NCBI GenBank assembly: GCA_947455705.1
Contig: CANGPO010000010.1
Span: 1 to 53,766 of the forward strand
Origin: Actinomycetota bacterium
Lineage (GTDB): Bacteria; Actinomycetota; Actinomycetes; S36-B12; CAIYMF01
Direction of reading: 5' to 3'
Length of the DNA: 53,766 nucleotides
The position numbers were made by a program, and so were the translations under genes. How positions within the stretch are numbered: the stretch's first letter is position 1; each line of letters opens with the position of its first letter. Positions 34,624-53,430 of this stretch are shown here, one piece after another. Below the pieces are notes generated by a model. The model was not told where the DNA came from and ran no database searches. It saw nothing but the letters and a program-made list of their open reading frames with translations.

Positions 34624-35250
34624 ATGGCTAGTTCCGCCCATGTTCGAGCGCTTACGCGCGACAACGTCGAACATCTTGCGCTCAACTGTCGTTCTTGCAC
34701 GCGATGGGAATTGGATGCCGTACACAGCGCCCGGGCGTCGCGTGCTGGGGCCGGAGCCGCAGCTAAGGCGCAATGGTTATCCACCACCCTGCTGGAGTGG
34801 GGTTCATGTGGGCAGGTGAGTTATGTCGATGATCAGCCCGTCGGCTACATCACATACGCGCCACCAGCATTCTTACCTGGCCTAGCGGCTTTTGCGACGT
34901 CGCCCGTGGCCCCTGACGCGGTAGGTCTAGCCACCGTATACATCGACCCGATGTATCGAGGTCGCGGTTATGGACGGGTCTTGGTGCGCGCAGCGGCCGC
35001 GGATCTGGTGCGTCGAGGTGTGAGAGCGATGGAGGTCATCGCGACGGAACAGTCCACGTCATGTTTGGTTCCGGCAGAATTCGTACGCGCCGTTGGGTTC
35101 ACTACCGTTCGATCGCATCCCATGACTCCGAGACTTCGTTTGGATCTGAAATCAACGGTGAGTTGGCGCGAGGATGTTGAGGCGGCACTTGATCGCATTC
35201 GTAAACGCGCTCCCGCACTGGGAACGGTTCCACGCAACGACCTGAACTAA
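34624..35250 (+). CDS. GNAT-family N-acetyltransferase
   Basis: A 208-residue protein with an N-terminal NCRSCTRWELD motif and a GNAT domain whose acetyl-CoA loop is RGRGYGRVLV (about 117-126), preceded by ATVYIDPMY. This Cys-containing form is often found near parB in actinobacteria. The substrate is unknown. Its TAA (35248-35250) overlaps the stop of the convergent CwlM-like gene. ATG 34624 gives a plausible short lead before the motif. Confidence 0.85.
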   Translation: MASSAHVRALTRDNVEHLALNCRSCTRWELDAVHSARASRAGAGAAAKAQWLSTTLLEWGSCGQVSYVDDQPVGYITYAPPAFLPGLAAFATSPVAPDAVGLATVYIDPMYRGRGYGRVLVRAAAADLVRRGVRAMEVIATEQSTSCLVPAEFVRAVGFTTVRSHPMTPRLRLDLKSTVSWREDVEAALDRIRKRAPALGTVPRNDLN

Positions 35251-50986: not shown

Positions 50987-52066
50987 CTAGCGCTCGATGG
51001 TGCCGGCGATGAAGTCTTCAACAGCCTGCTTTGCCTGATCGTCGGTGTACTGAACCGGCGGGCTCTTCATGAAGTACGAGGAGGCAGACAGAATCGGTCC
51101 GCCGATACCGCGGTCCAGCGCAATCTTCGCGGCGCGAATCGCGTCAATGATGATGCCGGCTGAGTTCGGTGAATCCCACACCTCGAGCTTGTATTCGAGT
51201 GAGAGCGGAATGTCGCCGAAGTTGCGGCCCTCAAGACGAACGAATGCCCACTTGCGGTCGTCGAGCCATGCGACGTAGTCGGACGGACCGATATGCACAT
51301 TGCGTGCGTCGATGCCGTTCTCCAACTGTGAGGTCACAGACTGCGTCTTGGAGATCTTCTTTGATTCGAGGCGATCACGCTCGAGCATGTTCATAAAGTC
51401 CATGTTGCCGCCGACGTTCAACTGGTACGTGCGATCGACGGTGACGCCACGGTCTTCGAAGAGCTTGGCAAGTACGCGGTGGGTGATGGTCGCACCAACC
51501 TGTGACTTGATGTCGTCGCCGACGATCGGCACACCGGCATCTTCGAACTTCTTCGCCCACTCTGGAGTGCCTGCGATGAAGACAGGAAGGGCGTTGACGA
51601 AACCTACGCCTGCGTCGATGGCGCACTGGGCGTAGTACTTCGCGGCTTGCTCCGAACCGACGGGCAGGTAGCAGACGAGAACGTCAACCTTTGCCTCGCG
51701 AAGAGCGGCGACTACGTCTACCGGCTCGTCGTCGGACTCGGTGATCATTTCGCGGTAGTACTTACCGAGGCCATCGAGCGTGTGACCACGCTGAACGATG
51801 ACGCCGCTTGGCGGTACGTCACAAATCTTGATGGTGTTGTTCTCGCTCGCGACGATCGCGTGGGAGAGGTCTTGTCCGACCTTCTTGGCGTCGACATCGA
51901 ACGCGGCCACGAACTGCACGTCGCTGACGTGGTACGGGCCAAACTGTACGTGCATCAGGCCTGGCACCTTGCCGGCCGGATCGGCGTCCTTGTAGTACTC
52001 GACGCCTTGCACGAGGGATGAGGCGCAGTTTCCAACGCCAACAATCGCAACGCGAATCGAACCCAT
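50987..52066 (-). CDS. ino1: Inositol-3-phosphate synthase
   Basis: The 359-residue enzyme matches the actinobacterial form: NAD-binding [17 protein letters not shown] at the start, the [15 protein letters not shown] catalytic stretch (lysine), [13 protein letters not shown] and [23 protein letters not shown]. It makes inositol-3-phosphate from glucose-6-phosphate for phosphatidylinositol and mycothiol. ATG 52066 has AAGGA 6 bases upstream. It is 17 bases downstream of padR. Confidence 0.96.
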
Positions 52067-52082: not shown

Positions 52083-52715
52083 TTACGTGCGCCGGGCAGA
52101 CGGGACGGTCCCGGCGCCGGTTGCTTTGGTTGCCGAACGTCCGTTAGGGACGTCGGAATCTGTGGGATGCGAGCGCTCGCTCGCGATCAATTCATCGAGC
52201 CAGCGCACTTCGCGCTCGACGCTGTCGAGGCCGTGCTGCTGCAACTCAAGGGTGTACGCATCCATCCGCTCGCGGCCACGTTGCAAGCTTGCGCGCAAGG
52301 TGTCTAGGCGCTCTTCGAGTCGCGAACGACGACCCTCAAGCACGCGAAGTCGGACGGACTGGTCGGTGCGTCCGAAGAATGCCAGGCGGACGCCGAAACG
52401 CTCGTCGTCCCATGCCTCGGGGCCGGCCTCGCTCAACAGTTGCTGGAAGTGTTCCTTGCCATCTGCGGTCAGGTGGTAGACCACCTTCGAGCGGCCGGAG
52501 CTTTGTGCATCGTCTCCGGGCTCCTCAGATAGCCAGCCTCGAGAGGTCAGGTCCTTGAGGGCGGGGTAGAGCGAACCATAGGAAATGGAGTGAAATGCAC
52601 CAAGTACGCCGGTCAGGCGCTTACGCAGTTCGTACCCGTGCATCGGTGATTCTTGGAGCAGCCCCAAGATGGCAAGCTCGAGTACACCACTGCGCCTTCC
52701 AGCACGTGGGGACAT
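52083..52715 (-). CDS. PadR-family transcriptional regulator
   Basis: The 210-residue protein has a PadR winged helix (about 10-90: [41 protein letters not shown]) and a C-terminal coiled-coil helical domain (about 95-190) for dimerisation. The gene leads the ino1 operon as in Mycobacterium (Rv0047c-ino1). ATG 52715 has AGGAGG about 7 bases upstream. A palindromic site over its own promoter suggests autoregulation of padR-ino1. Confidence 0.9.
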
Positions 52716-52776
52716 CGGCTTCCTCCTGATGATTGCGTCGTCGATTCGGGTGTCAGTTCGACGGTAGTACCTCAAA

Positions 52777-52801
52777 CCGATGTATCGAATCGATATATCG
52801 G
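52777..52801. promoter_or_regulatory. Probable PadR operator
   Basis: Arms CCGATGTATCG and CGATATATCGG flank an AAT centre (11-bp arms, one mismatch); its core TATCGA-A-TCGATA is perfect. It begins 4 bases downstream of a -10 box for padR-ino1, so a bound dimer would block initiation. PadR proteins typically bind palindromes of this size in their own promoters. Confidence 0.65.
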
Positions 52802-52804
52802 TGG

Positions 52805-52834
52805 ACTATATGTACCCTTCCGGTCAAAGTGCAA
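52805..52834 (-). promoter_or_regulatory. Promoter of padR-ino1
   Basis: On the minus strand, TTGCAC (52829-52834), an 18-base spacer and TATAGT (52805-52810) form a good housekeeping promoter with a TATANT -10. Its start point would fall within the palindromic operator. The leader to padR is about 85 bases. Confidence 0.6.
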
Positions 52835-52917
52835 ACCCAACATGCGGGATTGGCGAGAGAAATCGGGTTCTAGGCTGAAATCGACCTTGTGCAGGGCCCA
52901 ACGCGTACCCTTATCGC

Positions 52918-53430
52918 GTGGCCGCACCCCGTCAGCCCTCACATCGCGCCTCCCGGATTCGGGGTGAACGCCCGGCTGAACCACGCCGCGAGCCGCTACC
53001 GGCGGCCGAACTTGTCGCTGACCCCGCCCGCCCCCGCTCGGTCGTTGATTACGGACTGACTCGACGTGCGGTTCTGGAGAAGATTGCCGCTGGTGACACC
53101 TTTGCGCGTGCAGACCATCAAGACGCTGATCCGTACCTGATTCGAGCGGCCAAGCACCATGGCGAGCCGACCGAACGTCCCTGCCCCCTCTGCCGCGGTG
53201 GAGCATTGGTGCACGTGACGTACGTGTTTGGTGACGAACTAGGGCCCTACTCGGGCCGCATCAAGAATTCCCCGGATCTGCCCGTCATGGCCTATGAGTA
53301 CGGTCATTTCCGCGTTTACGTCGTGGAGGTATGCCCCGACTGCGGCTGGAATCACCTCACGTTGTCCTACGTGCTTGGCGATGGTGTCCCGCGACGGCCA
53401 CCGAGTAAACCGCGTGATCTTCTCGACTGA
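52918..53430 (+). CDS. DUF5318 zinc-ribbon-like protein
   Basis: The 170-residue protein has a variable Pro/Arg-rich start (about 1-38) and a DUF5318 domain: VVDYGLTRRAVLEKIAAG, PCPLCRGG and a second CPDCGW pair that together could hold zinc. It occurs in actinobacteria beside padR-ino1 and ponA1 (Rv0049 in Mycobacterium). The function is unknown. GTG 52918. It is divergent from padR. Confidence 0.88.
   Translation: MAAPRQPSHRASRIRGERPAEPRREPLPAAELVADPARPRSVVDYGLTRRAVLEKIAAGDTFARADHQDADPYLIRAAKHHGEPTERPCPLCRGGALVHVTYVFGDELGPYSGRIKNSPDLPVMAYEYGHFRVYVVEVCPDCGWNHLTLSYVLGDGVPRRPPSKPRDLLD

Follow-up and report, generated by a model that had tools for sequence, protein, structure and literature searches.

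Inositol feeds phosphatidylinositol lipids and mycothiol, and in Streptomyces the PadR-family protein InoR is reportedly a repressor of inoA that glucose 6-phosphate releases, a result credited to Zhang et al. in 2012. For PadR operators the consensus is ATGT-8N-ACAT. The S. coelicolor operon inoR–inoA corresponds to SCO3900–SCO3899 and encodes the regulator together with inositol phosphate synthase (as a passage of PMC7581861 describes), inoA, where present, generally adjoins inoR (an excerpt of PMC4255298), and a table that collects targets of sigma-E labels SCO3900 as PadR (PMC6767563). In Corynebacterium the LacI-type regulator IpsA likewise acts on ino1 via a palindrome, according to part of PMC3899939, as a member of another protein family with another operator than those considered here. 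The window analysed here (the whole stretch of 53,766 nucleotides, from an Actinomycetota bacterium; GenBank assembly GCA_947455705.1, contig CANGPO010000010.1) has the arrangement described for InoR (PMC7581861, PMC6767563), in which the gene for inositol phosphate synthase is immediately preceded, in a shared operon, by a gene of the PadR family. Regulators of this kind are already known, the one here being the orthologue of Streptomyces InoR, which has been published next to inoA. Upstream of the pair lies a palindrome that, on comparative sequence evidence, we take with a probability of roughly 0.88 to be the operator at which the PadR encoded directly downstream would repress its own gene and ino1.

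Both genes lie on the minus strand: padR (the inoR/napM orthologue; 52083–52715, 210 amino acids from its ATG, with the ribosome binding site GGAGG at 52722–52726) is followed after a gap of 16 bp by ino1 (50987–52066; inositol-3-phosphate synthase, 359 amino acids; TIGR03450 mycothiol_INO1, 691 bits against a cut-off of 638). The padR product matched Pfam PadR (2.7e-18) and Vir_act_alpha_C; in the window scan, run on a 230-amino-acid form of the protein, the winged-helix domain PF03551 scored 66.2 bits (cut-off 27) and PF10400, the helical domain at the C terminus of longer PadR proteins, 24.6 bits (cut-off 22.4). A longer start at the in-frame TTG at 52775 was judged less likely than the ATG at 52715, which has a good GGAGG and aligns with the starts in close relatives. 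Bacillus PadR has the same combination of PadR domain and C-terminal domain (match to PDB 5x11, which we take to be that protein, 1.1e-8), and the two differ in that the gene behind the window padR serves inositol synthesis. A far stronger match (residues 11–186 of 210, 6.1e-55) was to PDB 8jxk, the NapM protein of M. tuberculosis (PMC13340245). Only one Pfam PadR match was found in the genome in total. Divergent from padR is a DUF5318 gene (52918–53430, plus strand; Pfam DUF5318 7.6e-42), which we do not think is controlled by the palindrome. In its own upstream DNA (52906–52920, plus strand), TACCCT stands six bases before the GTG at 52918, as in a leaderless-type start, and the same shape, TACSCT-N6/7-GTG/ATG, was read by eye on the minus strand of four further loci (L008, L024, L025 and L028).

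The putative operator, called as a palindrome and supported by conservation, spans 27 bp (52776–52802, without strand), with arms of 13 nt (52776–52788 and 52790–52802) that are 92% complementary (12 of 13 pairs) around a single base. An earlier sequence-only reading had described a near-perfect 25-bp palindrome with the core TATCGA-A-TCGATA; that palindrome is present at 52777–52801 and can be extended to the 27 bp given here, and the core is exactly as described. Within it, the conserved 21-bp part (52779–52799) reads GATRTATCG-N3-CGATAYATC and contains the core TATCG-N3-CGATA (52783–52795). The palindrome has the ATGT...ACAT ends of PadR operators, but with 11 bases between them. Palindromes of at least 12 of 13 pairs occurred in none of 2,000 dinucleotide shuffles of the 290-bp upstream region; the whole window holds two, and one of five whole-window shuffles likewise reached two, so that by sequence alone this palindrome is notable only for its place. 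It is conservation, not rarity, that decides that the palindrome is real. In a selection of 48 sites, the steps TATC and GATA hardly varied, whereas the centre carried 0.09 bits, with the dyad on a base. Genomes were searched for the inner 21 bases as GATRTATCRNNYYGATAYATC with up to two mismatches, the reversed pattern serving as control; this pattern superseded one first derived from the window's own genome, TATCGATNNATCGATA, in which the dyad was misplaced and which matched only with two mismatches. The genome itself has one site at up to two mismatches; at three, five extra matches appeared, all five within reading frames (one of them acetyltransferase-like, at 34937–34957 of the window).

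The same palindrome was recognized by eye in 30 padR loci (our own and 29 from relatives) cut at the padR start. In 37 of 40 genomes (our own and 39 relatives) the site was found at up to two mismatches, as a single copy in 32 of the 37, and the reversed pattern was found in none of the 40. A PadR orthologue (E ≤ 1e-60) was present in 37 of the 40 as well, each of these with the site just upstream of padR, and the only genomes among the 40 to lack an orthologue (G014, G025 and G038) also lacked the site. Among the best 80 of 587 named loci from relatives, mostly Streptomyces, padR was followed by ino1 in all 80 and preceded by the site at up to two mismatches in 79, the remaining one having three. 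The expectation of the sequence-only reading that relatives with the same gene pair would carry the palindrome upstream is thus borne out. These counts also bear on the possibility that this PadR serves chiefly as a nucleoid-associated protein, with the palindrome as one of many loosely specified places that it occupies. NapM has indeed been called nucleoid-associated (PMC6377630), and ChIP-seq placed it at 573 sites in M. tuberculosis, with broad expression changes on deletion (PMC13340245); however, 32 of the 37 site-bearing genomes have just one site at up to two mismatches, as does our own, and this, together with an abundance of NapM about 800-fold below that of HupB (PMC13340245), makes the explanation very unlikely.

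The palindrome occupies the predicted start of the padR–ino1 transcript. On the minus strand, a –10 box, TATAGT (52805–52810), with a TAnnnT box at a similar place in same-genus loci, follows a –35-like TTGCAC (52829–52834) across an 18-bp spacer, and TTTGC-type letters stand at the –35 position in at least half of 11 same-genus loci by their consensus. Counting 6–8 nt from the –10 box, transcription would start at 52797–52799, inside the palindrome. The sequence-only reading placed the palindrome just after a –10 box; three bases lie between TATAGT and the 25-bp form, and two between it and the 27-bp form. This promoter was missed by a generic sigma-70 scan, whose sole match lay elsewhere (52729–52756); the assignment is backed by similar spacing in relatives. 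The 21-base site is preceded by a TAnnnT box at a distance of 3–7 bases in the 11 same-genus loci (five in the window), and by TATCGT at three bases in the Streptomyces consensus; with such boxes just before the site, the palindrome covers the expected start point. Across Streptomyces and Kitasatospora, the palindrome matched the pattern without mismatch in all 74 loci (S. coelicolor not among them), with a TATCNT-type –10 ahead of it in the rows listed; the InoR operator and that of the window thus follow the same pattern, as judged by genome sequences rather than by the published InoR binding sequence.

Two families have a second layout. In family f9 (termed mycobacteria-like from the resemblance of one PadR, that of G041, to 8jxk at 341 bits over 179 residues, in a set that does not include M. 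tuberculosis H37Rv), the right arm was TACTAT, TACGAT, TACAGT or TATAGT in the ten loci read; in the seven loci read of family f32, TACGAT lies within the right arm and an ATG or GTG follows 6–7 nt on, as in a leaderless message. We infer that these are –10 boxes inside the operator, which would explain why the outer symmetry is gone in both families. A bound protein would obstruct the polymerase in either layout, which points to repression; conservation by itself does not separate repression from activation. In the f32 loci L157–L162 and L165, operator, TACGAT box and leaderless-type padR start codon all fall within about 35 bp. Some loci (L182, L183, L185, L167 and L172, and genomes G260, G269 and G237) have another half-site 13 bp away, which produces overlapping palindromes; in Streptomyces-like promoters the added half-site coincides with the –10 box TATCGT, and other promoters have two or three consecutive sites.

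Across the 197 genomes of the class (our own included), the site was found in 147 and the control pattern in one, and a PadR orthologue (profile A1, E ≤ 1e-25) in 170. Site and orthologue were strongly associated (site in 144 of 170 genomes with an orthologue versus 3 of 27 without; Fisher P = 5e-14). The three sites without an orthologue were in G061, where the site is beside a padR fragment at a contig end, G132, where it ends three bases from the end of its contig, and G202, whose single match is weak. The upstream DNA was read in 24 of the 26 genomes that have an orthologue but no site (G137 and G184 were left out): 23 have a diverged copy (3–5 mismatches) upstream of padR, and the other, G053, has no upstream DNA. 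When one site per genome was taken from among the matches listed, its distance upstream of the padR match was 37–317 bp in all 70 cases (71 sites were taken, G159 having no padR row). At E ≤ 1e-25, every genome with an orthologue match had exactly one, both in the class (170 genomes) and in the phylum (53 genomes).

This distribution extends through the phylum. In 119 phylum genomes (10 of them from the class), the site was present in 46 of 53 with an orthologue versus 15 of 66 without (Fisher P = 1e-12); most of those 15 differed from the pattern at two positions, and 7 of the 119 genomes had a match to the control pattern. Outside the class, 44 genomes had an orthologue, and in all 31 loci read from them the site, padR and ino1 stood in line on the same strand (in L210 with ino1 only as a fragment at a contig end), the site being near the padR start at up to two mismatches in 27 and at three in 4. 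The whole arrangement in 31 of 31 loci suggests that the unit is phylum-wide and probably old.

Genomes in which padR and ino1 part company indicate with which of the two genes the site is inherited. In the class, ino1 (TIGR03450, E ≤ 1e-40) occurs in 176 of 197 genomes, nine of which lack a padR match; one of these is the contig-end case G061, and the other eight have no site at two mismatches anywhere in the genome. Upstream of ino1 at six loci in five such ino1-only genomes, there was no site within four mismatches and no core within one. In family f39, ino1, padR and the site are all missing in 8 of 8 genomes (for some, as judged by absence from match lists). The palindrome is therefore inherited with padR rather than with ino1. 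The proposal of the sequence-only reading that inositol supply is controlled by a PadR repressor at this palindrome is therefore supported at the level of sequence, since the site goes with padR–ino1 pairs and not with ino1 alone.

A rival reading is that the palindrome is no protein site but forms an RNA hairpin with which the transcript begins and which acts on stability or translation. An RNA starting at 52799 would, by inference, open with the palindrome; however, the palindrome is missing where padR is missing though ino1 remains, it is still kept in f32, where the TACGAT box inside it and a start codon 6–7 nt on should leave it mostly untranscribed, the right arm contains a TAnnnT box, presumably the –10, at each of the ten loci read in f9, and the TATC and GATA letters are themselves nearly invariant, beyond what mere pairing would require. 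We therefore regard a hairpin as highly improbable. Equally improbable is that the site belongs to another ino1 regulator, such as IpsA, which regulates ino1 in Corynebacterium and has a site inside the Rv0047c reading frame (in the relevant part of PMC3899939), or the response regulator WhiI, whose DNA-binding domain is reported to bind the inoR–inoA promoter in vitro (PMC4125116), because the site is co-inherited with padR and lacks the central CG given for LacI operators in that part of PMC3899939, its centre being variable (0.09 bits).

We therefore favour the operator of an InoR-type autorepressor. A PadR dimer would bind the half-sites GATRTATCG and CGATAYATC over the start point of the padR–ino1 transcript and, when bound, would block RNA polymerase, so that padR and ino1 would both be off; a metabolite reporting inositol need, for which glucose 6-phosphate, the Ino1 substrate, is a candidate, would release it. 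Under this mechanism, PadR would be devoted to the supply of inositol phosphate and would act at little more than a single site.

Matches beyond the padR–ino1 promoter were followed in 23 genomes, chosen because they showed several matches, strand counts that differed or a site in the absence of an orthologue (a few others whose strand counts differed, G095 and G205 among them, were not included). Second matches were mostly overlaps beside the main site, or weak, and at three mismatches in 11 genomes extra matches outnumbered those of a control pattern that differs in dinucleotide make-up; we claim no wider regulon from them. In G274 (L243 134–154, contig G274:C279), an exact palindrome marks the beginning of another PadR gene, which is followed by an MMPL gene, and ino1 was not found in the 1.9 kb behind that PadR gene. 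The half-site is thus not private to the InoR-type orthologue, and, by sequence, related PadR proteins may share it. In G159, a second site with two mismatches (L199 1047–1067; G159:C12:81646–81666), 9 kb from padR–ino1, is separated by 69 bp from the start codon of the gene downstream, which encodes the substrate-binding protein of a sugar ABC transporter and is nearest to rhizopine-binding proteins (195 bits, under the cut-off of 420); it is possible, from this arrangement in one genome, that inositol uptake there is under the same regulator. The 10.7-Mb genome G162 also has a second exact site, close to where a methyltransferase gene begins (L198 2493–2513, contig G162:C57), and a further match accompanies a padR fragment at a contig end (G102:C69).

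The breadth of this conservation reaches mycobacteria. NapM (Rv0047c, MSMEG_6903) is an orthologue of the window PadR by sequence and because, in those mycobacteria-like genomes that were read, its gene precedes ino1 (for example, at locus L195). Its promoter keeps TATCGnnnCGATA, apparently with a –10 box inside, the outer right half-site being replaced by the four –10-like hexamers listed above for f9. In print, NapM is a nucleoid-associated protein and DnaA antagonist (PMC6377630), and its deletion in M. smegmatis raised the expression of 1,283 genes and lowered that of 229 (PMC13340245); set beside its 573 binding places, so broad an expression change does not look like the work of a single-site regulator. 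InoR of Streptomyces and NapM of mycobacteria nevertheless appear to be the same protein. The name InoR is absent from the main texts of PMC13340245 and PMC6377630, and a search of the available papers for InoR and NapM together gave a single one, on the unrelated subject of chromate reduction, and no link between the two. Tentatively, and with somewhat more doubt than confidence, we suggest that NapM may be primarily an InoR-type ino1 repressor rather than a nucleoid-associated protein, with a single operator of high affinity in which the right arm also serves as the –10 box, and with reported effects on envelope, stress and replication that would stem largely from a disturbed supply of inositol, PIM and mycothiol, and that operator, repressor and ino1 together may be among the older regulatory units that Actinomycetota have conserved locally, predating the separation of their classes.

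Two benzoxaborole-resistant M. tuberculosis isolates carried a stop in Rv0047c together with a change in PgmA (PMC5571309). PgmA acts beside glucose 6-phosphate, and the pairing may fit the InoR-type reading, but the two isolates may be siblings, and added inositol left the MIC unshifted. In the same species, ino1 is reported to be essential for growth and virulence (title of Movahedzadeh 2004).

The locus is ordinary in kind, a putative local autorepressor with its operator, and remarkable in the breadth of its conservation and in its bearing on NapM. An operator that can be read from the genome would make control of the inositol step predictable across the phylum, genome by genome, and the palindrome offers a direct test of what NapM does.
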